Positions 9,688 to 52,428 of a stretch of 64,000 nt of DNA are shown one piece after another (the stretch's first letter is position 1; every line of letters starts with the position of its first letter). The DNA is from Buddleja alternifolia. Taxonomy: Eukaryota > Streptophyta > Magnoliopsida > Lamiales > Scrophulariaceae. Location: the NCBI GenBank assembly GCA_019426215.1, contig CM033391.1:10280708-10344707 (forward strand), in the 5' to 3' direction. The notes under the pieces are model-generated. The model did no database searches, was not told the origin of the DNA, and saw only the letters and a list, made by a program, of their open reading frames with translations. The position numbers and the translations under genes were made by a program.

Positions 9688-10500
9688 ATGGCCAATAATC
9701 CTTTCAAAACCCTAATTGAAACAAACAAATTGACTGGACCAAACTTTGAAGATTGGCTTCGTAACCTTAAGATTATCCTTTCGTGTGAAAGAAGACAATA
9801 TGTGCTTGATATACCGGTGCAAGATGAACCGAAAGAGGATTCATCTGATGATGAAAGTTCCAGTACCAGCAAGGGAAGGAAGATGACATGCAAGTGCGAT
9901 GTCTCATGTTGGCCTCTATGAGCAACGAGTTGCAGAGGCAACATGAGACGATCGAGAATGCTGCGTCGATCCTCCTTCATTTGCAAGAGCTATATGGCAC
10001 TAGAACTAGGCGAGAAAGATATGCTATCTCCAAGGAGCTCTTCAAAGCTCGAATGACTGAAAACTCTGATATAAGTGCACACGTACTTAAAATGATCAGG
10101 CTAATTGAAAAATTGGTTGGTCTAGGTGTGGCACTTGACAATGAGCTTTCTATGGATTTGGTCCTACAGTCATTGCCTAACTCTTATGATCAATTTGTGG
10201 TCAATTTCAACATGAACCAACTTGAAGCAAAGCTTCCTGAGCTGTTGAACATGTTGAAGACTGCTGAAAGCACCATCAAGAAGGATAAACCGGTGCTTCT
10301 TATGAATTCATCTTCTAAAGCCAATAAGGGCAACAAGAAGAAGAATAAGACTAAGAAGCCGAAAGGTAATGGTGGTGTAAAGAAGGTTAAGAAGCCAAAG
10401 TCTGAGAAGTCTGATAAGTGCCATAAATGTGGAAAAATTGGGCACTGGCAAAGGAACTGCAAAGAGCCTCGGGCTCAAGGTATGTTCTTTGTTGAAGTTA
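9688..10500 (+). pseudogene. gag of Copia element X (frameshifted)
   Basis: The start codon at 9688 (AAAATGGCC) opens MANNPFKTLIETNKLTGPN, a typical Copia gag N-terminus (nucleocapsid/capsid precursor). The first frame ends at 9919. From about 9888 the gag reading continues in another frame (CLMLASMSNELQRQHE...), so a frameshift lies between a serine/aspartate-rich stretch (about 9840-9880) and 9890. A CCHC zinc knuckle, CHKCGKIGHWQRNC, is at 10419-10460 behind a lysine-rich tract (10320-10410). Gag would form the virus-like particle and bind the element's RNA through the knuckle. Gag and pol are one continuous frame after the shift, as expected in Copia. Confidence 0.9.
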
Positions 10501-13500
10501 ACTTTACTGTTAACAATACTTCTTGGGTTCTTGACACTGGATGCGGTGTTCATATCTGTAATGATTTGCAGGTGATGGAAAGAACCAAGGAGCTAAGTAG
10601 AGGAGACATGACCCTGCGGATGGGGAATGGAGCATTGGTTGCTGCCAAAGTTGTGGGGACGATCTACTTAGAGTTAGGAGATAGGAAATTAGTTTTACAT
10701 TCCGTTTATTTTGTTCCTGAAATAATAAGAAATATTATCTTGATTCCGGTTTTAGATAGAGAAGGATATTGTTTTGAGATTCGTAATAAAAGTTTGCTTT
10801 TGTTTTATGAATCGTCTCTTATTATGGAATCTAAAATGGAGGATGGAATGTATACAATATCCCCAATAATTTCAAATCTCAATATTCAACAAAGTAACAA
10901 ACGTAAACAAGATAATCAAATAAGCACACAAATGTGGCACGAAAGACTTGGACATATTTCCAAAGAAAGAATTCGAACATTGGCAAAACATTTAGGTGTA
11001 AATGACTTAGATGAATTGTCAAGTTGCGAATCATGCCTTAAAGGAAAAATGACCAAGTTACCGTTTTCGGGGAAAGCGGAACGAGCCACAAAACCATTGG
11101 AATTAGTCCATACGGACGTGTGCGGGCCAATGAGTGTTGGCACTCAAGGTGGCCAAAGCTACTTCATAACTTTTACCGATGATTATTCACAGTATGGTTA
11201 TTTATATCTTATGAGATAAAAATTTGAATCCTTTGAGAAGTTTAAGGAGTTCAGAAACGAAGTAGAGGAGCAACTTGGTAGAAGTATTATGGCTCTTTGA
11301 TCGGATCGAGGAGGTGAATACTTGTTTACCGAGTTTCTTGATTATCTTAGAGAGAATGGAATTCTCTCACAGTGGACACCGCCTGGCACGCCTCAACATA
11401 ACGGGGTAGTCGAGCGAAGGAATCGAACATTGCTAGATATGGTTCGATCCATGATGTGTTTCACTAAAGTTCCTAAGTCCATGTGGGGCTATGCTCTTAA
11501 AACGGCTGTCTATCTGTTGAATAGATCACGTAGCAAGACGGCGCCCAATACCCCATACGAAAGTTGGTGTGGAAAGACGCCCTCATACAATCATTTGAGA
11601 ATATGGGGGTGTCCTGCTTATGTAAAGCATTTAGTGGGAGACAAATTGGACCCCAAGTCCTCTTTGTGCTATTTTGTAGGATATCCAAAGAAAACTGTTG
11701 GATATTACTTCTACATCCCAATGGAACAAAAGGTTATTGTTTCAAGAAATGCCAATTTCTTAGAGAGGGGTCACCTTCTAGATAGAAAAGGCGAGGTTGT
11801 AGAACTTGATAAGGTCCGTGAGAATGGATCAAGTCAAGAGATGCAAATTAACCCACCAGACACCAACGAGGCTACATCAGTGGCACCCATCGAAAACACA
11901 CAACCTTTGAGGAGATCAACGAGGATCCCAAAGGAGCCTGAAAGATGGCTAGGCCTATTGCAAGAGGAGGGTACTCAAGATCCTCCTCTAGACTCTGATC
12001 CGAAGAGTTTTAAGAGTGCAATGTCCGACATTGATTCGAGAAAATGGCTAGAGGCCATGACATCCGAAATGGACTCCATGTACTCTAACAAGGTTTGGAC
12101 CTTGGTTGACCCACCTGAGGGCATAAAGCCCATTGGCTGTAAGTGGGTCTACAAGCGAAAGCTTGGAGTCGATGGAGAGGTAGTAACCTATAAAGCTCGC
12201 CTTGTGGCAAAAGGATTCTCTCAAAGACAAGGAATTGACTATGAGGAAACCTTCTCGCCAGTAGCTATGCTGGCATTAGGATTATGCTTGCTATACCTGC
12301 ATATTTTGATTATGAAATATGGCAGATGGATGTAAAGACTGCATTCCTCAATGGAGAAATTGAGGAAGAGATTTACATGCAACAGCCAGAGGGCTTTACA
12401 TCCAAAGGGAGCGAACACAAAGTGTGTAAACTCCAAAGGTCCATTTATGGACTTAAACAAGCTTCTCGAAGTTGGAACAAACATTTTGACACTGTCATAC
12501 AAGAGTATGGATATGTTCAAAACTTTGAAGAGGCATGTGTGTATAAGAAATTCAGTGGGAGCGCAGTCACGTTCATCATACTTTACATCGATGACATCCT
12601 ACTAATTGGAAATGATGTAGGGATGATGCAGTTGACTAAAGTATGGCTCTCTAATAAATTCTCCATGAAAGATATGGGAGAGGCGTCCTACATACTCGGT
12701 AGGAAGATCTATAGAGATAGATCGAGTAGGATGCTAGGCCTCTCCCAATCTGCATATATCGATCGCGTACTCAAAAGATTTGAGATGGAAGAGTCCAAGA
12801 AGGGATTCTTGCCAATAGGACATGGTATCACACTTTCCAAGTCTATGTACCCAAAGACTGAGGAGGAAGAGTGAAAATGTCCAAAACTCCCTATGCTTCT
12901 GCGATAGGTAGTATCATGTATGCGATGATATGCACAAGACCCGATGTAGCCTATGCATTGAGTGCGTGCAGTCGATATCAAGCGAATCCAGGGATGGCAC
13001 ACTGGAGTTCGGTGAAAACAATCCTTAAGTATCTAAGAAGAACTAAGGAGTTGTTCTTGATATACGGACGAGGAGAATTGGAGTTAGAGGGGTTTACTGA
13101 TTCGAGTTTCCAATCCGACAAGGATGACTCGAAGTTGGTCTTTGGGTTTGTATTTGTGCTTAATGGCGGAGCGGTTAGCTGGAAGAGTTCCAAGCAAGCA
13201 ACCATAGCCGACTCCACCACTGAAGCAAAATTCATTGCAGCAAATGAGGCTGCAAAGGAAGCTATTTGGATGAGGAACTTCATCCAAGAATTGGGTGTCG
13301 TTCCATCCGTTGGGGATCCAGTAACGGTCTACTGTGATAACAACGGGGCTATTACGCAAGCAAAAGAGCCAAGGTCTCATCAGAAATCCAAACATGTTCT
13401 GAGGAAATTCCGATTGATACGAGAAATCATTGGAAGAGGAAACATGCGAATGGAGCGCGTAGACACAGCGGACAACATAGCGGACCCACTCACCAAACCC

Positions 13501-36040: not shown

Positions 36041-38250
36041 ATGGATTTTAACAAGATCCCTAAGCTGATTAAGTCAAATTATGATTTATGGAAACTTAGA
36101 ACATTTGCATATTTATGTTCTTGTGATAATGAGATGTGTGATGTAATTATAGATGGCCCCATTCAGATCATGAAATTTATAACTAGAGCCCCTGGAGCGA
36201 CTGAAACTACTCCAGATGGTTATTTCGAGAAGCCTAAGTTAGAATGGATGCCAGAAGATCAGAAAAGAGCGAATCTAGATAATGTTGGACGAAGTGCTCT
36301 CTACTCAGCGTTAGGAGACAATGATGCATTGTTCAACAAGATCAAGCAATGTAAGACTTCAAAAGAGATATTGGGTAAGTTGGCTATCGTGTGGGAAGGT
36401 TCAGCACAGATGAAGGAGAACAAGCTATCCAAAGCCATGCAAAGATTTGAGCATTTCAAGATGCAACCCAATGAGACGCTAGATCAATTGGACGCAAGTT
36501 TCACTTTACTCATCACCGAGTTAGCGTCATTCGACGAGGAATTGACCAAGAAGAAAATGGTCAACAAGATATTCAGAAGTCTTCCAAGCAAGTATTTGAT
36601 TAAGACGATTGCCATGAGAGAATCATAGACTTTGGAGACTCTAACTCCAGAACATGTGTTTTCAGAGTTAAAGGCATTTTAGTTCGAATTAGGTGAAATC
36701 AGCGACACATTGACTTCAGCGACTGAATAAGGAGCTTTAATCGTTACTACCAAAAGTAAGGGTAAAGCGATTAGTGAGGTGAAATCAACGAAATCCAATG
36801 AGGAAAAAGAGCTGGCTTTATTGGTCAAGAAATTTCAAAGATATGAAAAGAGAAACCTTATTGGACAAACTTCATTTCAAACCCCTCCCCCTGTACCAGC
36901 GCCTCAGTATCAAGCGCCAGTGTATTCTGCACCTCAACCAGTAACGCCAGTTTCATACCAAGCGCCTCCGACTCCTACTTAGAATCTCTTAGTGCTAGTA
37001 GTTTCCAAAAGGTTATCAACTGAATAGAAAATGAAAACTAACCTTTGCTATAACTACAGGAAACCAGGGCACTACCAAGTAAATTGCCCTTATCCAAATG
37101 TGTCTAAGCCTACAAGGAAGACTATGCGGATAGAAACGAATTCAGGAGCAACCTTTGCTATCAAGGATTTCTAGCGGAATCTGAACTATTCTCCACACCT
37201 GAAGAGGACTTGGAATCATCAGATGAAAGCAATGATGACATCAAGCGACTCAGCTTTAATTTGTCTCATGGCTAGAGATGAAGAAGCGTTTGATGACTCG
37301 CTATCTAAGGTAAACACTTAATTATCTCATCCTCTTTCTTATGATGAATTACTTGACAAAGTAAATGAGTATTATAAAGATTTTCAAGATGCCGCTAAGT
37401 TATACCCAAATCACTTTGATATCATTTCATTGCTCACAAGTGACAAAATGACGCTCAAGGCAGAGTTCCAAATTCAGCAACAATGCATTGAGAAGAATCA
37501 ATCGCTTGAGAGTGAAATTATCCAACTGAAAAGTGATATTGATATAATAGTCAAGAGAGAAGCTGAATTGATCACCAAACTTGCCAAATCAGAGCAACTT
37601 GTCTCATCATTATCCAAAGCGTCAAGGATGCTAGATAATGTGACTGAGGTAACCAAACGTTTTGGTGAAAAGACCGATATAGGTTGCAATAAATTTGGTA
37701 AAAAATGAAAAACATCTAAGGTTACGGCAACCAACAAAGGAAAAAGTGTATTCTTTGTTGAGAAGAGTTTAAACTGTCAAAACGTTGAATGAACCTAAGG
37801 ACAATGGTAAGAGGCCAAATGAGAAGGTCAATACCAACTCAAGCAACAAGGAGAAGACAAAAGTGAATGAGTCACAAAAAAAGGTCCATCCAAACGCTCA
37901 AAAGGTTAAGGATAAACCATCCACAAGTAAATCAAACGCTAAGCGTCAATCGCCAAGAGCGACTCCTAAGCCAGTGCCAAGGAAATACCAGCATCAATAT
38001 CCCCAAAGATTTAGATCATATTATTGATACTATGATGATTATGATTATGATTACGACTATGATTACTATTATAATCGAGGATATTACTATACACCTAAAA
38101 ACACACACAAACACAAATCGAAACCCAAGAAGGCCAATCTTCCCGTAATAAACACAAGTCAAATATGGGCTCCAAAAGTTTTAATTCAAACTAAAGCTAC
38201 GAACTTTGAAGGACCCAAGACAAAATGGGTACCTAAAAAGAATTAGAACT
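36041..38250 (+). pseudogene. gag region of Sirevirus C (decayed)
   Basis: The ATG at 36041 opens MDFNKIPKLIKSNYDLWKLR, a Copia-type gag with a UBN2-like central part (LDQLDASFTLLITEL, MVNKIFRSLPSKY). In-frame stops follow at 36626 and shortly after, then the same frame continues through a proline/glutamine-rich segment to about 36982. The zinc knuckle near 37040 reads LCYNYRKPGHYQVNCPYP, so the second cysteine of CxxC is replaced by tyrosine. A coiled-coil stretch (37430-37700; EKNQSLESEIIQLKSDI) is typical of the long Sirevirus Gag. A Tyr/Asp-rich run (DYDYDYDYYY) follows near 38037-38080 after a frame change. Gag would build particles, but this copy is dead. Confidence 0.85.
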
Positions 38251-41319: not shown

Positions 41320-41328
41320 TAATTATTT
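41320..41328. repeat. 9-bp target duplication, left (TAATTATTT)
   Basis: Perfectly repeated at 50624-50632. Nine bases is the duplication length made by Mutator-like transposases. Confidence 0.85.
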
Positions 41329-41689
41329 GGGAAAATTGGGGAAATAGCCCCATTTTACATAAGCTATTAAGCCTCTAGCCCCATTCCACAAAAATTTTAA
41401 GTGTCTAGCACCATAGAAATTGCACTTTAGTCCCTCAGATTTGCAAAAACAAGCCACTATTTTTGACTAAGTCAAAATAGCTAAAACCAAGCAAAAACCG
41501 ACACATGGCAAGTAATTTTTATTTTTTAAGTATTTATGCTTTGTTTTTATTTTCAATTTGGTCCCTTTAGTTTATTGTGAATTTATATAAACCCATGAGA
41601 GTAATTAGACATATTTTAAAGAAAAGGGAATCCCAACCCGCTTTTATAAATCTGCATAAAAACTTTTATTGCCTTCATAATTTACATAC
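41329..41689 (+). repeat. Left terminal region of the TIR element
   Basis: No gene. It holds the terminal inverted repeat and AT-rich sequence up to ORF1. A TATAAA at 41655 lies about 35 bp before the ORF1 ATG, but I do not see why it should act as a promoter. The boundary between transposon and viral leader cannot be placed from sequence alone. Confidence 0.5.
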
Positions 41690-42452
41690 ATGCCAATTCC
41701 TGCTCATATTTTAAGTGCTTTTATTGATTGTCTTAATACTTTAGAAAACTTAGATTATACTAATACAGAATTAATATTAGAATTACGAAATCAATTAATA
41801 ATTAGAAGAGAACATTGGGTTAATAATTATCTTAACATACCTCCTAGATTAAGAGATCACGAAAACTATATTAAGTACCTTTTAATATTGAATATATTAA
41901 TAGCAGCCTTTTATTAAAATAGCTTCTTCTAATTATAAAAGATTAGAATATCTAGATTTAGAATATAGTTTAGCCGATAGAACCGTAATCTCTTTAGATA
42001 AACATAAATTTATTTGTAGATTTGATTCAAGTTTTAAGCATAATTTACATTCAGAAAATAAACACTTAAATAGTTTAACAGATTTATTTATATCTTTAGC
42101 ATCAAACTTAGAAATAAATAACGCTAAACTTTGTAAAACGTTAGAATCATTAAAAGAAACCGTTTTAATAAATAAAGAAATAATAAAGAAGGGTGAAAAT
42201 AATAATTTAGATTATATTAAACAACAATCTGAGGAAACTCTAAAAATAGTTAAAAAATATAATAAGCTTTTCCCCACTAAAGACGAAATAATAGAGTTAA
42301 AATATAGCTTGGAAAGTAATAAGCTAAAACAATTAGAACTTGAAACTAAGAAAACTCTAAGCCAAGTAATAGAAAAAATAAATAAAGTTGAAGCTCAAAA
42401 CTTAGAAACAGGTAAAACACTAAAAAATATAGAACGAATAGTTAGTGGATGA
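41690..42452 (+). pseudogene. Caulimovirid ORF1 (one frameshift)
   Basis: The ATG at 41690 opens 75 codons to TAA 41915. The homologous reading then continues in a second frame from about 41905 to TGA 42450-42452, so a one-base indel lies near 41905-41915. The full frame would be about 250 codons. The second half (42120-42440) is rich in Lys, Glu and Leu and looks like a coiled coil. Its stop overlaps the next start as ATGA (42449-42452), the arrangement of ORF1/ORF2 in badnaviruses and Tungrovirus. The homologous badnaviral protein is of poorly known function and virion-associated in some species. Confidence 0.75.
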
Positions 42453-42787
42453 ATAGTCTAGACAATAGATTAGAATATAAAAGAGCCATTGAACAAGCAA
42501 ATAAATATCTATATACTGAAGAAGGATTTACTACCTATCAAGGAACTAGTAATTCAGATAAATTGTACCCTAAACTTTGGAATATTCAATTCGCTTTAAT
42601 TCTACAAATATTCGAAAGATTAGATAAGTTAGAAAATAAGTTGGAAAAATTAAGTACTAAAATAGACACAGTATCTCAAGTGATTAAAGGAGATTTACAA
42701 GATAGTATAGAAGAAAGATTATCAAATTTAGCACTAGAAGAATCTGAAAAACCTAAAAAAGAACCTAAAAAATATATATATTGGTAA
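42449..42787 (+). CDS. Caulimovirid ORF2, virion-associated-like protein (112 aa)
   Basis: An intact frame of 112 codons. The middle part (LQIFERLDKLENKLEKLSTKI) is a heptad-type coiled coil. The end is rich in Lys, Pro and Glu and very basic. Size, position between ORF1 and the polyprotein, coiled coil and basic tail match the small ORF2 protein of badnaviruses, which binds nucleic acid and associates with particles. It ends four bases before the polyprotein ATG (42791). Confidence 0.8.
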   Translation: MNSLDNRLEYKRAIEQANKYLYTEEGFTTYQGTSNSDKLYPKLWNIQFALILQIFERLDKLENKLEKLSTKIDTVSQVIKGDLQDSIEERLSNLALEESEKPKKEPKKYIYW

Positions 42788-42790
42788 AAA

Positions 42791-45700
42791 ATGATGAGAT
42801 CATTTAGTGGTACTAGTAGAACTATAAGTGAATCAAGTAATAAAGAAAAAGAGAAAGGAAAAATAAGTAATACTTTCACTAAACGAATGTTTAGAGGATC
42901 AGGAAGTCAAAGCTCAGCTAGAGAAGTAGAATTAGAAGAGATAATAGACGTAGAAGAAAATCTTAATTTATATAATAACAAGGGAATAGATAAGTTAAAA
43001 CCTAAAACATTATACAAAGTAGGAAAAATGGATTTTAACACACATTTAATCAAGAAATTTAGAGAAAAAGAAGTAAAAGTTACAACAAATGCTGAAAATA
43101 TAAGCCTAGTTAGCCCGGAATGTATAAAACAATTAAAACAATTAAAGCAAAAATATATACATTTAGGATTAATTATTGTAGGAATAAAAGGATTAACTAG
43201 AAAGGGAACCGGTGGAAAGGTTTTAGTTTTATTATTAGATAAGAGTTGGTCTGATGCTAGGAGAGCAGTATTTGCTAGTATGGAAATAGATATGACTAAT
43301 AATGTAGGAATATTTTATGTAGCTCCGAACATGATGAAAAGTATTAAAGATATTAATAAAATTACGATAGGATTACAAACTAGAGGATATGAAACATATG
43401 ATGGTAACAACTTAGTAGTTTCTATAGCATTTTTAGGAAGAGTAACCAATAATAGTTTTCCTCAATATAAAATTAATATAGATGGAATAATAGATGGATT
43501 AGCCTCAGTAGGAGTAAAAATGATTAAACCTTTAAATATAGATAATAACGATTTAAATGGAGAAGAATGGGAATTAACCAAGCATTTAGAAGAAAATGAG
43601 ACTGTCAAAGTTCCAGGAGAGAGTGTAATGTATACAAACAGTAGAGGTCAAACTTTTATTAGATTCCTTAATTACCAAAAACAAAATCCCAAAGAAAATT
43701 TAGAAGATCTAGAAGAAGAAACTGATAATGAAACTGAAACATGCTACATGAATATTATAGAAGAAGAAGTTAGAATAACTAGTAGATTTGCTAATTGGGA
43801 AATATTATCTGATATAGAAAGCGAAGAAGATGAAGAGGAAGAAAATATAGAAGAAATAGATGAAGAGATTAGACAATTAGAAAGTCAACTCAAAAATGAT
43901 TATAGACCAAAAAATATGGAAGAAATATTAAGAAAAAATTTTGAGATAAATAATTTAAGAGAATTAGTAGATGAAATGTATTTTGAAGCAATGAATTTAG
44001 ATATCAATTTAGAATCAGCTGAAGAAGAATTTAAACAATATTATAATATTGATTTAGTTGATGATATATGTTCAGGAAAAATAGAATTTGAAAAATTCTT
44101 TAAAAATAAAGAGAAAGGTAATAACGAAGTAGCTTTTATGGCAGATAGTCAAGCAAGTACTAGTAGTAATATAGGAAAAAGAACTAGAGTAGAACCAGAT
44201 TATAGTGAAGTTCCAGCTAGAAATGTAGAAATGAGTGGTAGACCAGAATGGAAAAGTCCCACATATGAATATGGATCAACCCAACCAAATAAATATATAG
44301 GATCAAGACAACCCATAGGAAAAACCATGAGTGGAACCATGTTAGTAATTGAATTAGGAAGTCCACAAATGTGGCCAGAAGAAATAAATATATGGGAACA
44401 ATGTGTAGTAAGACATTGGGAAATAAATAAAAAAGCAGATATGGATATGTTTAACTTTTTAGAAACCTGTTTAGGACCTACAGCATTATCTATCTGGCAA
44501 AGCAAGAAGAAGAAAGATCCTAATAGAATTAATGAAATAAAGGCCTTAGGAAATAATCCTTATAATTTTACTAGTTTTATTAGAACATTAATAATAGGTA
44601 TAGATCCAGGAAGAGAAAATACATTCATACAAGATACAGCACTTAGAAACCTAGAACAACTCACTATAACAGATATGAAATATATTATACCTTTTAGTCA
44701 AGATTTTACAAGATTAATAGGAGAAGCTAATAAAGCATTTGATGAAGAATTATGTAATAGGTATTTTACGAAATTACCACAAGATTTAGGAAAAAGAATA
44801 CATGAAGAATGGATAAAAACTAATGGCAATCTTACAGGATTAGGTATAGGACCTAGAGTACAATATACTTTCTTTAAACTTCAGGAATGGTGTAAAGAAG
44901 AATTTATTAGAGAACAAATTAGAAAGCAATCTTATGAGTTTTGTAGAAAAGCTATATACACCCCACAACAATATGGACAAAAGAATTACTTTAAGCCAAA
45001 ACGCAAAATATTAAGGAAATCAAATAAACCAAAATCTAGTTTTAGACAATATAGGCAAGGAAGAAAGCCACCTAATTATGTTAAAAAGCCATCAACAAGA
45101 AAATGCACATGTTATATTTGTGGAGATCCTAAACATTTAGCTAATAGATGTCCGAAAAGACAATTTAATATGGAAAGAGCAGCCATAGCAGAACAATTAG
45201 ATGAAGACGTAGTAAGTATAGACGGTAATGAAAGTGATAATGAAAGCATATTTAGTGTAGTAAGTGAAGAAGGACCAGAAATTCCAAATATAATAGAATA
45301 TACCTATATGAATAATTCATGTGAACATAAATATATAAATGGAAAGGGAACTATGAGTATAGCCTGTAGTATTTGTAGATTATATCCTGATATGCATTTA
45401 AGATATCAATGCAATATATGTTTTGACGAAATTTGTTTTATTTGTGCTAAAGACGTATATCATATAGAAACAGATGTATCTCTCAAACCTAGTAAAAAAC
45501 TAGAATCTATAGAAGTTCTAAGTCATAAAATAGAGAATTTAGATTTAAGAATACAATTAATAGAATTAAAAATAAAAAATAATGAAAACATAAATAGTCT
45601 TCAAAATAAAGGAAAAGGTGTAGTAATAGAAGAACTTGATGAAATTAACCAACAATTAGAAGAAACTCATTTACAAAACACAGCATATGAACCCCAACTA

Positions 45701-46828
45701 CAAGTACCCTATACTAGTAGTCTAATACTTTTAGATTGTCGAATATGGTGTAATCAAGAAAAATATATTGAAACTAAAGCCATTTTAGATACAGGAAGTA
45801 CAAAAAGCATGCTTAGCGCTAGTCTTGTGCCAAAAGATTTTGTAACACAACTAAGCTATACAGTTACTAGTAGAACTGCCGAAAATAGATTAATGAGAAT
45901 AACAAAAGAATTAATTAACATAGGGATACAATTTAAGGATTTTTCAGGAAATTATAGTAGTAAATATACATTAGGACAAGTACTTATAGCACCAGATAAC
46001 ATAAATAGCCATGAATTCCTTTTAGGACTAAACTTCATTTGTGCATTAAATGGTAGTATCTTAATAGGAAAAAATTATATTACTATTAGCAAACATAATT
46101 ATACTTTTCCAACTAATAGATACATTAAACAATCAGAGTTGACTGCGAAGCGTGGTGGACATGGTAATAATGAACTCGATTTTTTCAAAGAATTAGAACA
46201 AAATAATATAGAATCTGAAACTATAGATATCCTATTAGATGAAGAAATACGAGATATAGGAAAGGGATTAGAAGTTTTAAACCTAGAAAATGAAAGAATT
46301 TTGCATAAATTAGAAATGTTAGGATTTATAGGAGATGATTTAGCTAAAAACAAAGTAAACTATACTTTTAAACTAAACATATTAAACCCAGATATAGTTA
46401 TAAGAACAGCAGCTATAGAATATACTCCTGAAGATATAAAAGAATTCAAAACACAAATAAAAGAAATGTTGGAAATAGGTGTTATAAGAAGAAGTGATAG
46501 TCCTCATAGATCAGCAGCCTTTATAGTAAGAAATAATGCAGAAATAAAAAGAGGAAAACCTAGAATAGTATATAACTATAAGAGACTTAATGATAATACA
46601 GAAGATGATGCTTATAGAATACCTAATAAAGATGAGTTAATTAATCTTATACAAAATAAAAAGATATTTTCAAAATTTGATTTAAAAAGCGGATATAATC
46701 AAATTAAAATGGTAGAAGAAGACAAAAAATGGACAGCTTTCAGCTGTAGTGAAGGACATTTCGAGTGGAATGTTCTATCTTTTGGTTTAAAAAAATGCTC
46801 CAGCAATATTTCAAAGATTTATGGATAG
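42791..46828 (+). CDS. Caulimovirid ORF3 polyprotein, first part (movement, coat, protease, start of RT)
   Basis: 1345 codons without a stop. Residues about 70-250 form a 30K-type movement protein region. An acidic stretch (about 300-360) follows. The coat-protein region is at about 500-760, ending in a CCHC knuckle (CYICGDPKHLANRC, about 774-787). A second Cys/His cluster at about 845-890 (CEHKY...CSICRLYPDMHLRY...CNIC...CFIC) is the kind of extra Cys-rich motif known from badnaviruses. The protease DTG (AILDTGSTKSML) is at about 998. RT starts at about 1210 (KPRIVYNYKRLN, FDLKSGYNQIKM). The frame fails at an A-run (46789-46795) with one A too many, and the reading continues at 46821. It acts in cell-to-cell movement, encapsidation and reverse transcription. 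The gene is very AT-rich compared with its surroundings. Confidence 0.93.
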   Translation: MMRSFSGTSRTISESSNKEKEKGKISNTFTKRMFRGSGSQSSAREVELEEIIDVEENLNLYNNKGIDKLKPKTLYKVGKMDFNTHLIKKFREKEVKVTTNAENISLVSPECIKQLKQLKQKYIHLGLIIVGIKGLTRKGTGGKVLVLLLDKSWSDARRAVFASMEIDMTNNVGIFYVAPNMMKSIKDINKITIGLQTRGYETYDGNNLVVSIAFLGRVTNNSFPQYKINIDGIIDGLASVGVKMIKPLNIDNNDLNGEEWELTKHLEENETVKVPGESVMYTNSRGQTFIRFLNYQKQNPKENLEDLEEETDNETETCYMNIIEEEVRITSRFANWEILSDIESEEDEEEENIEEIDEEIRQLESQLKNDYRPKNMEEILRKNFEINNLRELVDEMYFEAMNLDINLESAEEEFKQYYNIDLVDDICSGKIEFEKFFKNKEKGNNEVAFMADSQASTSSNIGKRTRVEPDYSEVPARNVEMSGRPEWKSPTYEYGSTQPNKYIGSRQPIGKTMSGTMLVIELGSPQMWPEEINIWEQCVVRHWEINKKADMDMFNFLETCLGPTALSIWQSKKKKDPNRINEIKALGNNPYNFTSFIRTLIIGIDPGRENTFIQDTALRNLEQLTITDMKYIIPFSQDFTRLIGEANKAFDEELCNRYFTKLPQDLGKRIHEEWIKTNGNLTGLGIGPRVQYTFFKLQEWCKEEFIREQIRKQSYEFCRKAIYTPQQYGQKNYFKPKRKILRKSNKPKSSFRQYRQGRKPPNYVKKPSTRKCTCYICGDPKHLANRCPKRQFNMERAAIAEQLDEDVVSIDGNESDNESIFSVVSEEGPEIPNIIEYTYMNNSCEHKYINGKGTMSIACSICRLYPDMHLRYQCNICFDEICFICAKDVYHIETDVSLKPSKKLESIEVLSHKIENLDLRIQLIELKIKNNENINSLQNKGKGVVIEELDEINQQLEETHLQNTAYEPQLQVPYTSSLILLDCRIWCNQEKYIETKAILDTGSTKSMLSASLVPKDFVTQLSYTVTSRTAENRLMRITKELINIGIQFKDFSGNYSSKYTLGQVLIAPDNINSHEFLLGLNFICALNGSILIGKNYITISKHNYTFPTNRYIKQSELTAKRGGHGNNELDFFKELEQNNIESETIDILLDEEIRDIGKGLEVLNLENERILHKLEMLGFIGDDLAKNKVNYTFKLNILNPDIVIRTAAIEYTPEDIKEFKTQIKEMLEIGVIRRSDSPHRSAAFIVRNNAEIKRGKPRIVYNYKRLNDNTEDDAYRIPNKDELINLIQNKKIFSKFDLKSGYNQIKMVEEDKKWTAFSCSEGHFEWNVLSFGLKKCSSNISKIYG

Positions 46829-47774
46829 TATATTTAAACATTTAGATTTCTGTTTAGTATATATAGATGACATTTTAGTAGCTTCTGAAACTTTTAAGCA
46901 ACATCAAGATCATTTAAAACAAGTGTTTAATTTAATAGAAGAAAACGGAATAGTAGTATCTAAAAAGAAAATGGAACTTTTTAAGAGAAAAATAAGCTTT
47001 TTAGGTTTAGAAATAGGAAACGGACAAATTAAATTACAACCTCATATAGCTCAAAAAATTCTAGATTTCCCAGATAAATTAGAAAACTTAAAACAAATAC
47101 AAGCGTTTTTAGGAATATTAAATTACTCTAGAAAATTTATTCCTAAACTTAGTAAATTAGTCGGACCATTATATAAGAAAACAGGAAAATCAGGTCAAAG
47201 ACATTTTAATCAGGAAGATATTAACTTAGTCAGAAAAATTAAAGAAGTTGTTAAAGATTTAAAACCTTTAGAATTACCCTTAAGTACTGATTATGTTATA
47301 ATAGAAGTAGATAGCTCTATAGAAGGATGGGGAGCAATATTAAAATGTAAACCTCATAAATTTTCTCCAAAAAATGAAGAAAAAATATCAGCTTATTCCA
47401 GTGGTAATTTTAATAAAATAGGAAGTAATTGGACTAGCCTAGATTATGAAATAGCAGGGATAGTTAAAGCAATAGACCATTTTAGACTATATTTAAATAA
47501 ACCTTTTACCATTAGAACGGATTGTGAAGCTGTAGTTAGATTTATTAAAAATGAAAATTCTAGAAAACAAAACAATAAAAGATGGTTAAATTTTAAAAAT
47601 GCAATAGAAGGTAATGGATATAAAGTAGATTTTGAACATATTAAAGGATCAAACAATAGCATAGCAGATTTATTAAGCAGGCAATTAACTTTAATTTTGG
47701 GAAACAGATCATGGCTTCCAACGACCAAGACAACCAACAAACAAGACCTCCCTCTGCAACTTACAACCAAATAG
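46821..47774 (+). CDS. Caulimovirid ORF3, second part (RT palm and RNase H)
   Basis: This continues the polyprotein in another frame after the A-run. RT catalytic YIDD (LVYIDDILVAS) is near 46857-46889. The RT thumb/connection (QIQAFLGILNYSRKFIP) is near 47096. RNase H follows, with IIEVDSSIEGWGAIL near 47300, the TDCEA segment near 47518 and GSNNSIADLLSR near 47648. The last 29 codons run past the usual RNase H end and overlap the start of the next ORF (47711). It is 317 codons with no stops inside. The ATG at 46821 is only an internal methionine of RT. Confidence 0.92.
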   Translation: MDSIFKHLDFCLVYIDDILVASETFKQHQDHLKQVFNLIEENGIVVSKKKMELFKRKISFLGLEIGNGQIKLQPHIAQKILDFPDKLENLKQIQAFLGILNYSRKFIPKLSKLVGPLYKKTGKSGQRHFNQEDINLVRKIKEVVKDLKPLELPLSTDYVIIEVDSSIEGWGAILKCKPHKFSPKNEEKISAYSSGNFNKIGSNWTSLDYEIAGIVKAIDHFRLYLNKPFTIRTDCEAVVRFIKNENSRKQNNKRWLNFKNAIEGNGYKVDFEHIKGSNNSIADLLSRQLTLILGNRSWLPTTKTTNKQDLPLQLTTK

Positions 47775-48730
47775 TCCGAAGACCAGCTTTCAGGCCTAAT
47801 TTTCAACGAACTAGCCAGAATAGACCAGCATTCACAATAGAAACTCAGTTATTTAATCCAGCCACTCAAAAAGTTTTTAAAACCTTTGGCAAAATAGCAC
47901 TTCCAGTTAGACATAATTTCAAGCTCCCAAAAGATACCCCTCATATAACTGAAGAACAGAGTATCTTACTCAATGCTCTATGGGAAGCTCATCCTTCAAT
48001 CGGCAAATTAACAGCATTAAATGCATTATGTTTTTATTTCGAAAAAGAAAACAAAAATTTTCCAATAGAAGAAGCAGCAGTTTATCTTGTTATTAGAGGA
48101 GATCCAGTGGGAATCTTTGAAGATTATCAACGAGCAATACAAAGCATTCAGAAGGTAGCAAAGGGATACTTGGAGCCCTTTAAACATTTTCATGAAGCAG
48201 TAACAGCAGCAAGAAGAATTTTAGGCCCAAATTTTTACATACAGCCTAATGCCGAAAATGCAAAGCCCAAAATACTTTCAAAGGGAAAGAAACCCATAAA
48301 CCCAGATGTAGAAGCACTCGAAGATGACTTAGAGACTATAACTAAACAGTTTACCAACCTTAACAAATTTTATCAAGACCTTTTAGCCCAGCATCAAAAG
48401 TTATCAGCCCATTTAATAAACCCCAGACAAAATGATGTTCCTAAGGAGATTAAAAATAAATCCTACCAATTCTTGTCTATTCGAACTTTTTTTAACCCTT
48501 GCCAAACAGTTCTAGCTTTACCTGAAGAAATTCAGAGTATCATTTGGCAAAAAGCAGAAGATAGCTTTTACAAAAGAATGTTAAAAGTAGCCCAAATTAT
48601 TATCAATCAGCAGATAGAAGGAATAATTTCAAAGACTCGCCTACTACAATGGAAGGGAGAACCTATTCGCCACGAAGGATCATTAAAATTCTACACCCTA
48701 AAATATTTTCATGGCCTAATGTTCATATAG
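47711..48730 (+). CDS. Caulimovirid ORF4, transactivator/viroplasmin-like protein (first part)
   Basis: It starts inside the 3' end of ORF3 in a different frame (64-base overlap). Residues about 123-172 (VYLVIRGDPVGIFEDYQ...) resemble the small RNase-H-binding fold shared by eukaryotic RNase H1 and caulimovirus transactivator/viroplasmin (family PF01693): a Y-x-V start, a G-x-x-x-GI turn, an aromatic/acidic helix and a later F-x-x-x-x-EA. A predicted coiled-coil stretch is at about 210-240. In other genera this protein forms inclusion bodies and permits translation of downstream ORFs. The frame closes at 48728 after a probable indel, and homologous reading seems to continue in the next frame (48649-49332). 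The family call is by eye only. Confidence 0.6.
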   Translation: MASNDQDNQQTRPPSATYNQIVRRPAFRPNFQRTSQNRPAFTIETQLFNPATQKVFKTFGKIALPVRHNFKLPKDTPHITEEQSILLNALWEAHPSIGKLTALNALCFYFEKENKNFPIEEAAVYLVIRGDPVGIFEDYQRAIQSIQKVAKGYLEPFKHFHEAVTAARRILGPNFYIQPNAENAKPKILSKGKKPINPDVEALEDDLETITKQFTNLNKFYQDLLAQHQKLSAHLINPRQNDVPKEIKNKSYQFLSIRTFFNPCQTVLALPEEIQSIIWQKAEDSFYKRMLKVAQIIINQQIEGIISKTRLLQWKGEPIRHEGSLKFYTLKYFHGLMFI

Positions 48731-49332
48731 ACGCATCAGTTTTTAGAGAAGGATGGATAGATGAAGAATTCATCAGCGTTCAAAGGTTATTAGACTATGG
48801 TTTCATAGCAAAAATATTTGTATCAGATCCAGTACAAGTGACTCATATAGGTCGACATATTTCAGACGCTGTCAATTTTATATTCGAGCAACAAGCAGCA
48901 GAAAGTCTCAAGATTGACATAGTATCTCTACCTCCAATTTGGAACACTACAGGAATCGAAATAGGACATTCATTCTTTTCGATAACAGAGAATTATGAAA
49001 AATGGGAACCAATGTCAACATTGTGGAATTGTCCTGAAGCCATAAATCCTTTAGCCAATATAGAAGAGCTCAAATTAGCTTTGGAAATACGGAGGAAAAC
49101 GCAGCGACAGTATATGATGCCCAATTCAGATTCAGACCTCAAGCTTATTTTCCAGGCACCTCATCATAGCATATTTATTCCGGCCAAGAACAGATGCAAG
49201 ATTCGCCTTACTACTTTAGGAAAAAGAGCAATGACAAGTGTGGAATACCCACCAAGATATAATCCTGATATGTATAATCCTGATTCAGAATATAATCCAG
49301 ATCTAGAAGGAACCAGTCGAGATACATACTAG
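48649..49332 (+). CDS. Caulimovirid ORF4, continuation in a second frame
   Basis: 227 codons overlapping the end of the preceding frame by 82 bases, with the same base composition and no stops until TAG at 49330. The most economical reading is one ORF of about 540 codons broken by a single indel between 48640 and 48730, a size like known transactivator proteins. The C-terminal end has YNPDMYNPDSEYNPDLEG, a short repeated YNPD motif. A separate small ORF5 is a less likely alternative. Confidence 0.55.
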   Translation: MEGRTYSPRRIIKILHPKIFSWPNVHIDASVFREGWIDEEFISVQRLLDYGFIAKIFVSDPVQVTHIGRHISDAVNFIFEQQAAESLKIDIVSLPPIWNTTGIEIGHSFFSITENYEKWEPMSTLWNCPEAINPLANIEELKLALEIRRKTQRQYMMPNSDSDLKLIFQAPHHSIFIPAKNRCKIRLTTLGKRAMTSVEYPPRYNPDMYNPDSEYNPDLEGTSRDTY

Positions 49333-49690
49333 AAGACAAAAGCTTCAACAGTTCAGCAATAATGGTTAGCAGCACCAATAATTCAGCTACAAGACAAATT
49401 TAAAGAGATAGCTCATGAAGACAGCATTCAAAATTTCAGCAAAATAATGCATCTCCCAGACAAAAGTCATAAATGCATCAGCAGCAAGGACAATAATTTG
49501 CAGCAATAATTCAGCTATCAAACAAGGCACTGAATTCAAAGCAACAATCTCAGCAACTTTTGTACCATATTAACTGTTCACTATTGCCACCTATGTACTT
49601 CTTACTGTTTAGACACTGTTTGTAATAATGGCAGATCGGATGCCAAGTTTGTTCTTCATTTTGTTGTAAATTTAGTTCATGTCCGAGGCC

Positions 49691-49698
49691 TATAAAAG
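49691..49698 (+). promoter_or_regulatory. TATA box of the pregenomic RNA promoter
   Basis: TATAAAAG in GGCCTATAAAAGGACCTC. It is followed by a leader leading to the primer site 450 bases later, as in badnavirus-like genomes. Confidence 0.75.
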
Positions 49699-49786
49699 GA
49701 CCTCATCCCTCAGTTGTAAAAATTGCACCTTGACATTCTCCAACCCACACTTCTTGGTTGCTAGAGAATCTCTCATCTTTTCTTGT

Positions 49787-49792
49787 AATAAA
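49787..49792 (+). terminator. Viral poly(A) signal
   Basis: AATAAA in TTCTTGTAATAAAATATC, downstream of the expected RNA start, so it would be ignored on first passage and used on the second. Confidence 0.6.
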
Positions 49793-50149
49793 ATATCTTC
49801 TTGTGTGCAATAATATCTTGTAAGTTTTTATATGTTTTATAATGCATAGTGAGTAAACTCTCCCAGGGACGGGATTCCCCTACTATTTAAAAATGTTATA
49901 ACTCTCTCATGGTCAAAAAATACAAAAACATTAAAAATCGAAAAACCAAAAACATTAAAAATGCTCAAAATGATGATGAACAGTAGTAACATTCTACTGT
50001 TTCATCTTCTCAAAAATATGTTTCCGCTGTACAAATTATTGTTTTCAATAATATCTGATACTGCTTTGGGAAGATTTTGTTTACCGTCTCGGTGTTACTG
50101 GTCGGGAGACAAAATGTGCGGGATAATTCCCCCCAGTGTGCAAGCAAAA

Positions 50150-50161
50150 TGGTATCAGAGC
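50150..50161 (+). promoter_or_regulatory. Pararetrovirus minus-strand primer site (tRNA-Met)
   Basis: TGGTATCAGAGC, then TTGAG, is the conserved caulimovirid primer site complementary to initiator tRNA-Met, by convention position 1 of the genome. Here it lies downstream of all ORFs, so the circular genome was opened in the leader between this site and ORF1. Confidence 0.93.
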
Positions 50162-50623
50162 TTGAGTATTCTGAGTATGCTCTGTGGTCGCAGTTTAATC
50201 TGATCTTCCACATCAGAAAAGTGTTCTCAAGTTATGTTTCAAAACAGTGTTTTTAAGTTTAAATTATTAAATAAGTTAAGCACATATTTTGAAATTCAAA
50301 AGGGTAAGATAGGTACTTTACTCCAGATCCAACGTAAGTCTTCGTTTATGAAGCAATCGGATTTACAAAGCAACCCTCTTACATGAGAAATTTAGAATAG
50401 AATGCTTAACTCGTTAAATGATAAAAATTTGGTGACACTGTTCATATTTTATGTAATTATGTTGTTTTTTGTAAAAATCTATTTTATAAGGACCAAAGCT
50501 TAATAACTTCAAAAGTTACTGGACCCATGTGCAATTATAAGAAAGTGGTACAATACGAGGCTACAGTAGAGGTGCCATTTCCTTAAAAGACTTTCAAAAA
50601 AGGGCTATTTGGCTAAATGTCCC
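50162..50623 (+). other. Viral leader remnant and right terminal region of the TIR element
   Basis: No gene. The first few hundred bases are probably the 5' leader of the viral RNA. The last about 130 bases (from AGGACCAAAGC near 50490) look like transposon terminus and end in the inverted repeat at 50602-50623. Confidence 0.55.
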
Positions 50624-50956
50624 TAATTATTTAAGGTTTTTTCCACCAAAGCAACATTAGTCTAATAATATGAGAACATGTTTATAATGAAAATTGATTA
50701 AGTTATGCCAACACATGTGTCTTAGTTGCTCTTTTCCATAGCTATCTTGATTTCGACATCTTGTTTCTTATATCTTACTTCCATAATATTTTAGTTAATT
50801 CTTGTTTTAGTTTAAGTTCTTCAATTGCTTTAAAATCATAAACTAAAATACAAGTCCTTGAGGTTCGACAACCCGGATTTTATTGTCCACTTTATTACTA
50901 CACACGACCAGTCCACTTGCTGTTTAATACACGTAAGGATTTTTCGTGTCAAGTTT
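50624..50956 (+). repeat. Right duplication (TAATTATTT, 50624-50632) and right part of the split LTR
   Basis: The end of the LTR. 'AGTCCTTGAGGTTCGACAACCCGG...CCACTTTATTACTACACACGA' parallels the minus-strand copy in B ('ACTTGTGGTTTGACATCCAGAC...CCACTATTAGTACACATACGA'), and both reach CGTGTCA. The right TTGCG duplication lies at 50957-50961. Confidence 0.75.
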
Positions 50957-50961
50957 TTGCG

Positions 50962-52428
50962 CAAAAGCGATGCAAGAGGAGGTTAACCAATTTGAAAGAA
51001 GTAAGGTTTGGACGCTAGTATCAAGACCAACTCACCAAGGAGTTAGTGGGACTAGATGGGTTTTTAGGAACAAGATGGATGAAGATGGCATTGTTATAAG
51101 AAACAAAGCCAAACTAGTCGCTCAGGGTTATTGCCAAGAAGAGGGTATTGATTTTGATGAGACGTATGCCTCAGTAGCCCGTCTAGAAGCGATTCGGATG
51201 TTTCTAGTGTTTGCCGCATTCAACAAGTTCACAGTGTATCAAATGGACGTGAAGAGTGCTATCCTGAATGGTAAACTCCAAGAAGAAGTATATGTGGAGC
51301 AACCCCCAGGATTCATCAACAACCATGGGAAAAGTATGATCTACAAATTGGATAAGGCACTTTATGGTCTTAAACAAGCACCAAGGGCATGGTATGACAC
51401 TCTTTTTAACTTCCTTATAGGTAAAGGCTTTTCAAAAGGCAGCATTGATACAACATTATTTAAAATTACCCATAATGAAGATATTTTCTTAGTCCAAATT
51501 TATGTTGATGATATTATATTCGGATCTACTAATAAGCGATTGTGTGAGAAATTTTTGAAAATGATGCAAGATCAATTTGTAATGAGCATGTCCTTGGATT
51601 ACAAGTTAAACAACTCCCTAATGGCATATTTCTAAACCATGCTAAATATACATGAGATATGATTAAGAAATTTGGTATGGAAAATGCATCATCTTCAAAA
51701 ATTCCAATGAGCCAAACACTTAAGTTAGATAAAGATGAAAGTGGGAAGAAAAAAGATATCACTAACTATAGAGGTATCATTGGACCACTTCTTTATCTTC
51801 CCGCTAGTTGACCTAAGATTATGTTTTCGATATGCATGTGTGCACACTTTCAACTTGATCCAAAAGAATCACACTTAATTGCTACCAAGAAGATCCTTAA
51901 ATACCTAAAAAGGACATAAAATGTGGGCTTATGGTATCCAAGGGACTCTTTATTTGAACTAATTGGTTATTCAGACGCAGATTTTGTAGGATGCAAAATA
52001 GATAGAAAGAGTACCGGTGGTACATGTCAATTTCTAGGTGATAGACTGATTTTGTGGCATAGCAAGAAACAACAATCCATAGAAACTTCTACCGCTAAGG
52101 TAGAGTATGTAGCCGCTGGAAGCTGTTGTGCACAAATTCTTTGGATGAGGCAACAACTTGGAGATTATGGAACAATCTTAGGTCTTACCCAATCCACTGT
52201 GATAACCAAAGCGCTTTAGCTATGACCCAAAACCCAGTCCTTCATTCTAAAACTAAACACATTGACATTCGCTACCATTTCTTGTGTGATCATGTTTAAA
52301 AGAAAGATATCTCCATGCATTTCATCAGTACTAACAAACAAGTGGCAGATATCTTCACCAAAGCACTCAACGAACAACATTTTCTCACTTTGAGAAGTGA
52401 ATTAGGTATGATTGATTTAAACGCTTAA
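50962..52428 (+). pseudogene. RT and RNase H part of pol, Sirevirus C
   Basis: It resumes the pol frame after the nested insertion. [36 protein letters not shown] near 51235, [13 protein letters not shown] near 51370 and the catalytic YVDDIIF near 51500 are all present. The frame is intact to about 51590, then a gap/frameshift occurs ([13 protein letters not shown]) and RNase H follows in other frames (IGYSDADFVGCKIDRKSTGG near 51960; ADIFTKALNEQHFLTLRSEL near 52345). The stop is TAA at 52426. It is the best preserved RT among the Sirevirus copies here. Confidence 0.9.

Follow-up and report, generated by a model that had tools for sequence, protein, structure and literature searches.

The stretch of Buddleja alternifolia DNA analysed here (64,000 nucleotides of contig CM033391.1; referred to as the window) contains a 9.3-kb unit at positions 41329-50623, which was found to be one member of a family of genomic copies with fixed ends. 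Its content was a nearly whole badnavirus-like caulimovirid, as judged from a primer site and from domains over the Pfam cut-off: movement protein (MP; PF01107), caulimovirus coat (PF22909), A3B protease (PF21024), reverse transcriptase (RT), and RNase H. The named relatives of the RT/RNase H region were plant caulimovirid-like proteins, including a fragment of pineapple bacilliform ER virus with 46% identity; no viral relatives were confirmed in IMG/VR. As in badnaviruses, two small open reading frames (ORFs) precede the polyprotein. The frame of the latter (ORF3) was broken inside RT in the window copy and intact at that point in other copies. No relatives of ORF X and ORF Y were found in searches, and their structure models were too poor to judge (predicted local distance difference test (pLDDT) of 39 and 30, respectively). 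Pfam scans of the ORFs of the unit, including X and Y without known relatives, revealed neither an integrase domain nor a recognisable transposase; because it has no transposase of the Mutator-like element (MULE) type, the unit is at most a non-autonomous Mutator-like member. The primer site TGGTATCAGAGC, which we take to be complementary to initiator Met-tRNA, and the leader hairpin lie downstream of the promoter region, as in Caulimoviridae. Since the TATA-like box, AATAAA, and primer site come after the ORFs, the linear ends of the unit fall within the viral leader, between the primer site and the first ORF. An earlier interpretation made without database searches (the sequence-only reading) had proposed a caulimovirid cargo with ORFs, promoter, poly(A) signal, and primer site; viral ORFs, a TATA-like box, an AATAAA, and a primer site were present.

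The unit is flanked by a perfect 9-bp duplication (TAATTATTT), and its inverted ends agree with each other at 17 of 22 positions in the shorter comparison and at 22 of 36 in the longer one; no shuffle out of 300 was locally as similar over the first 25, 40 or 60 bases. The duplication and the 17 of 22 matches reported by the sequence-only reading were thus both confirmed. On the other hand, its statement that an interrupted long terminal repeat reads on across the empty site was not confirmed: the joined flanks had no uninterrupted match in the window. Beyond approximately 60 bases, the similarity of the ends was near the shuffled level (300 shuffles), by which both a long degenerate terminal inverted repeat (TIR) and a leader hairpin spanning both ends were rejected. 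The TIR is short, at approximately 28 bp, with the two ends differing from each other. A two-strand fold of the arms (-212 kcal/mol; -186 kcal/mol with a standard deviation of 8 for shuffles) was not used, because it includes the internal hairpin of the right arm.

Table. Features of the 9.3-kb unit and its target duplication (positions in the window; C-numbers are contigs of the host genome).
Feature	Position	Strand	Basis or remark
Left target-duplication copy TAATTATTT	41320..41328		sequence
Left Mutator-like end	41329..41356	+	inverted match to right end; 25/28 bases identical to the end of a MULE at C2
Left arm, remaining leader ahead of ORF1	41357..41903	+	imperfect tandem repeat at 41345-41414
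ORF1	41904..42452	+	182 codons stop to stop; no Pfam match
ORF2	42449..42787	+	112 aa; no match over Pfam cut-off
ORF3, first part	42791..46828	+	movement protein, coat domain, A3B protease, first half of RT
ORF3, second part	46821..47774	+	second half of RT, RNase H
ORF X	47711..48730	+	339 aa; no relative found; model pLDDT 39
ORF Y	48649..49332	+	227 aa; no relative found; model pLDDT 30
TATA-like box	49691..49697	+	sequence; putative function
AATAAA, possible poly(A) signal	49787..49792	+	sequence; putative function
Primer site TGGTATCAGAGC	50150..50161	+	exact, well placed; ~4 chance matches expected in the window at ≤2 mismatches
Leader hairpin	50243..50442	+	inverted repeat 50243-50282 / 50403-50442, 73% complementary; 93% conserved in older copies
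Less conserved stretch, hairpin to right end; probably transposon-derived	50443..50595	+	86-89% identity in older copies
Right Mutator-like end	50596..50623	-	22-mer with 174 genome matches (≤3 mismatches), 0 with reversed control; 94% identity over last 30 bases in older copies
Right target-duplication copy	50624..50632		sequence

When the host genome (853.6 Mb, 429 contigs) was searched with the left 300 bp of the unit, 41 matches were listed (best 40 of 323 candidates scored), among which 19, including the window, showed at least 96% identity and all began at the first base. In 18 further young copies and 2 divergent ones, the place expected for the right end was probed; the end was found there in 17 of the 18 young copies, and the divergent copy on C180 kept the last 61 bp. 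It was absent from the expected spot in C10 and C12b, and that of C10 was located 18.7 kb from its left end. The young set was defined as the 19 copies, including the window, with both ends located. A perfect duplication was observed in 17 of them (9 bp in 13 and 10 bp in 4), by which a chance duplication in the window was rejected; the target duplications of Mutator-like elements range from 9 to 11 bp. As for the remaining two, C19 had both ends and no duplication, and C4 abuts a scaffold gap of 100 N, so that its duplication was not readable and a possible tandem there not interpretable. The match C345:1507 was left out of the count because its left flank is the same as that of C264; C264:5264 and C345:1773-1800, each on a short contig, show one and the same insertion, and the sequence there is probably allelic or duplicated. 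At C10, a tandem dimer was rejected, and a nested insertion is more likely, because the viral match does not continue through the whole of the 18.7-kb span and both outer flanks carry the duplication. The median age of the young copies was estimated to be 0.13-0.27 million years from two substitution rates and from singletons, some of which perhaps predate insertion. Both the structure and its movement as a unit leaving Mutator-type footprints are near certain.

Both flanks were available for ten copies that are older or rearranged: C16c had a duplication of 9 bp and C4b one of 8 bp, C14b shared 5 bp, and seven had none. Copies with the same ends and no duplication, which the sequence-only reading had regarded as contrary evidence, were thus seen in part: some copies, most of them old, lack a readable duplication at these ends. 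Three of the seven, C12c, C12b, and C12 (3.5 Mb), have an internal deletion in common. Because AATAAATAG ends the left flank of C12c and begins the right flanks of C12b and C180, later duplication or rearrangement appears likely for the deletion copies on C12 and C180, and spread of this subfamily by transposition was not supported. The subfamily consists of the loci L049, L066, L067, and L068 (C12 and C180), which share the deletion in the polyprotein and seem to have spread on C12 through duplication or rearrangement. A further locus, L051, is a derivative of approximately 1.4 kb.

Matches to the right end were frequent in the genome and absent with the control (Table), and the left-end pattern of the older copies similarly gave 63 genome matches and none in the control. 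MULE transposase domains are abundant in this genome (150 scored of 2169 candidates). Four left-end matches (≤3 mismatches of 28) outside the list obtained with the left 300 bp were located 7.6-10.2 kb from such a domain, and all four lay downstream of it and pointed inwards, in one and the same arrangement; the chance expectation for a domain on the inner side is approximately 0.002 per site with the 150 scored domains. The check for a transposase-bearing relative, suggested by the sequence-only reading, thus led to four places at which similar ends lie near transposase domains. No right-end match among those compared was found within 15 kb of any of the 150 scored domains. One of the four MULE-associated ends was read, and 28 of its 30 bases were as in the left terminus of C14b, an old viral copy; it was identical to the left and right ends of the window unit at 26 and 23 of 30 bases, respectively. 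Since similar ends lie near MULE transposase domains, the ends of the unit belong to the MULE kind, and we infer that a transposase of this kind acts on them. A young MULE family was also detected, with 26 transposase hits of equal score (150 scored of 2169 candidates), 15 of them in open frames of 871-882 aa, and with a frame for a Ulp1-type protease that runs opposite to the transposase. Two copies of this family were compared with the viral left end: the left end of one was identical to it at 23 of 30 bases, that of the other at 15 of 30. The units of this family (L120-L125; C9, C14, and C11) are more than 10 kb long, and two copies were 98.7-99.8% identical in their best-matched parts. In addition, C8:37047639-37056799 contains two neighbouring pairs of left-end-like sites, each approximately 4.5 kb apart and inverted, which are candidates for cargo-free relatives with such ends; no shared flank was found for the 4.5-kb pair in the pieces read.

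Identity along the leader, measured in 7 to 9 older copies against the window, was 96% at the primer site, 93% in the hairpin, 86-89% at 50441-50593, and 94% over the last 30 bases. On the left side, the corresponding values were 85% for the first 30 bases, 68% for the next 30, and 85-89% thereafter, with no terminal peak. Because identity falls after the hairpin and rises again over the last 30 bases, the simplest reading is that viral leader extends to approximately 50440 and would be followed by transposon-derived sequence with a constrained terminus.

Twenty further regions beside left ends were also taken (19 divergent copies and C10; the left ends C166 and C345:1507 were not included). 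Viral sequence was present in all 20: 18 by protein match (four pieces tested), and L051 and L063 by DNA match into ORF1. The ratio of nonsynonymous to synonymous divergence (dN/dS) against the window, calculated without the young copies and the second C4 piece, was 0.08-0.17 for MP at dS of 0.24-0.37 (12 divergent copies), 0.04-0.08 for RT/RNase H in five copies and 0.23 in the most distant one, 0.07-0.19 for ORF2 (16 copies), and 0.12-0.28 for ORF1 (17 copies). Between older copies, the median dN/dS for MP was 0.23 (range of 0.12-0.44 in 66 pairs), and RT/RNase H gave a median of 0.22 in the 9 pairs whose dS exceeded 0.05; these pairwise values are raised by decay after integration. Within the young family, the corresponding polymorphism ratio (pN/pS) was 0.19, 0.33, and 0.23 for RT, X, and Y, respectively (153 pairs each). 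Shared variants of the young family were synonymous in 27 of 46 cases, against approximately a fifth expected (X alone was weak: 4 of 11), and singletons in 56 of 133, many of the latter coming from the more distant copy C16b. These results show that purifying selection acted on the viral proteins during the divergence of the copies, and that the young copies are still constrained.

The young copies have also exchanged segments. In 18 of them, 2209 of 4005 pairs among 90 shared two-state sites were incompatible, close to the mean of 2162 with random assignment, and transversions only gave 119 of 276 incompatible pairs (116 at random). Linkage decayed from r2 of 0.30 at less than 50 bp to approximately 0.09 beyond 1 kb, a decay that is not produced by repeated mutation alone. 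Beyond 1 kb, the shuffling of variants among the young copies is thus almost free. In block permutations with 18, 16, and 15 copies, the first 500 bases were linked to the last 704 bases (6/1000, 26/1000, and 28/1000, respectively), as were the next 952 bases (3/300, 6/1000, and 3/1000, respectively). The RT-X blocks were not linked in any of the three copy sets, and the Y-R blocks were linked only in the 18-copy set (15/300). Linkage between opposite ends is suggestive of a circle in which the two ends would be neighbours.

The reading that we prefer is that the ends belong to a lineage of the virus that replicates, for which a host MULE transposase serves as an integrase (probability of approximately 0.5). 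The unit would be the integrated genome of a badnavirus-like caulimovirid, the leader of which contains both ends of a Mutator-like transposon. The lineage may have replicated as an episomal circle, in the leader of which the two ends were neighbours. Occasionally, a MULE transposase encoded elsewhere in the genome would have recognised these ends and integrated the intervening DNA, thereby standing in for the integrase absent from the virus family; a return to the circle by excision would also be possible. The young family would accordingly represent repeated insertion from a replicating and recombining viral pool carrying transposon ends. A fuller version, advanced tentatively, is that a reverse-transcribing virus lineage took Mutator ends into its leader heritably and used the host MULE transposase as an integrase while its strains diverged to dS of approximately 0.3, alternating between an episomal circle that recombines and insertions into chromosomes with duplication of the target, that is, a proviral stage run by a DNA transposon. 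Several observations weigh against this interpretation. A readable duplication is missing in most of the older copies. No circular form was observed, and the evidence for one is indirect, consisting of the opposite-end linkage, which stays at the level of a suggestion because 15 block pairs were tested without correction and because the second left block was also linked to X (8/1000, 18-copy set), as is not predicted by a circle. Gene conversion between integrated copies could have produced the mixing, and which MULE transposase acts is a matter of inference from the ends. Furthermore, among the right-end matches listed, a right end was present within 1.2 kb at only 9 of the 61 exact primer-site matches on C1-C6.

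Joining of an ordinary endogenous pararetrovirus by DNA repair, with a duplication arising by chance, would fit C19 and the older copies without a readable duplication; it is refuted for the young copies by the perfect duplications at identical ends in 17 of 19, and its likelihood overall is next to nil. It is also improbable that the ends are viral and that integration is catalysed by an enzyme of the virus itself, such as a product of ORF X or Y: X and Y have no known relatives and show some constraint in the young copies, and their models do not permit a judgement, while Pfam scans revealed no integrase or transposase domain and similar ends occur beside MULE transposase domains. More serious is the explanation, unlikely in our view, that one viral genome was captured by a non-autonomous MULE and the resulting unit was spread by transposase in trans in the manner of a Pack-MULE, the virus playing no role. 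The duplications, the ends, and the lack of a recognised transposase all fit, and the deletion derivatives show that incomplete units persist; however, neither constraint on the viral proteins, both between subfamilies and within the young family, nor near-free shuffling of variants is expected of a cut-and-paste passenger. The Mutator vehicle proposed by the sequence-only reading is therefore supported with regard to Mutator-type ends, duplications of 9-10 bp, movement of the whole unit to at least 17 sites, and a nearly whole caulimovirid as content, and is not well supported with regard to a passive, Pack-MULE-like cargo acquired a single time.

A two-part system, in which a related virus without the ends replicates and the transposon-bounded units are refreshed by recombination with it or arise anew from it, is more doubtful still than a passive cargo. 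It draws on the 359 genome matches (≤3 mismatches) to a 30-mer over the primer site, compared with 174 for the right end, and on the 52 of 61 exact primer-site matches on C1-C6 without a right end nearby among those listed, which include part of the right ends with two mismatches and may miss a few. Each of these 52 loci is a retrotransposon whose primer region is similar or else a viral copy that lacks these ends; should the latter apply, a form of the virus without the ends would exist, which would strengthen the two-part system. The lower conservation of the left and right arms than of the primer site and hairpin points in the same direction. On the other hand, the left arm of older copies (82-94% identity) has diverged together with the viral genes, as if co-inherited. 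Two primer-site matches on C7 (12318878 and 12327554) are on the same strand and 8,676 bases apart.

Elsewhere in the window, pieces of Copia-type retrotransposons with gag, integrase-region, and RVT_2 domains were found at 9888-12874, 36041-36628, and 50946-51635, and an open frame of 562 aa without a Pfam match at 55-1743.

The unit resembles Caulimoviridae, as outlined in a 2023 review (PMC10377300), in MP, coat domain, A3B protease, RT, RNase H, primer site, and the absence of a detected integrase domain, and differs from the endogenous caulimovirids described there in its fixed ends with duplications of 9-10 bp. Section 3.1 of the same review called the route of the integrase-lacking caulimovirids into plant genomes speculative; one such route can be tested directly on a family whose insertions have fixed ends and target duplications, and this family suggests that a virus without a known enzyme for chromosome entry borrows transposon machinery to enter the genome. 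CAULIFINDER (PMC9719215) seeks repetitive endogenous caulimovirids in plants, and its benchmark run gave no evidence of chimeras between caulimovirids and transposable elements; it looked for transposase proteins, which the present unit would not show. No paper on a MULE-caulimovirid unit was found by title or abstract in the open-licence PMC literature. Mutator-like elements and Pack-MULEs, as presented in the literature (PMC10741241; maize Mu, PMC2774946), are similar to the unit in duplications of 9-10 bp, GGG-starting ends, and non-autonomous members with foreign content. The unit differs in its short TIR (~28 bp) with dissimilar ends (PMC10741241), and in that Pack-MULEs carry fragments of host genes, whereas it holds a nearly whole viral genome under constraint. 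The nearest known system appears to be Teratorn, the piggyBac-herpesvirus fusion of medaka (PMC10175614), which is also a cut-and-paste transposon and a virus spreading in a genome as one unit, and which the authors of that review regarded as the first case of a DNA virus fused with a cut-and-paste transposon. According to the same account, Teratorn has its own transposase and is a 180-kb herpesvirus, whereas the unit is reverse-transcribing, 9.3 kb in length, and without a transposase recognised inside. Fusion of a transposon and a virus is therefore already known as a kind, and on the best reading what is new here would be a reverse-transcribing plant virus with the transposase from elsewhere; if this is true, the family is a reverse-transcribing plant counterpart of Teratorn, to which the enzyme is supplied from outside.

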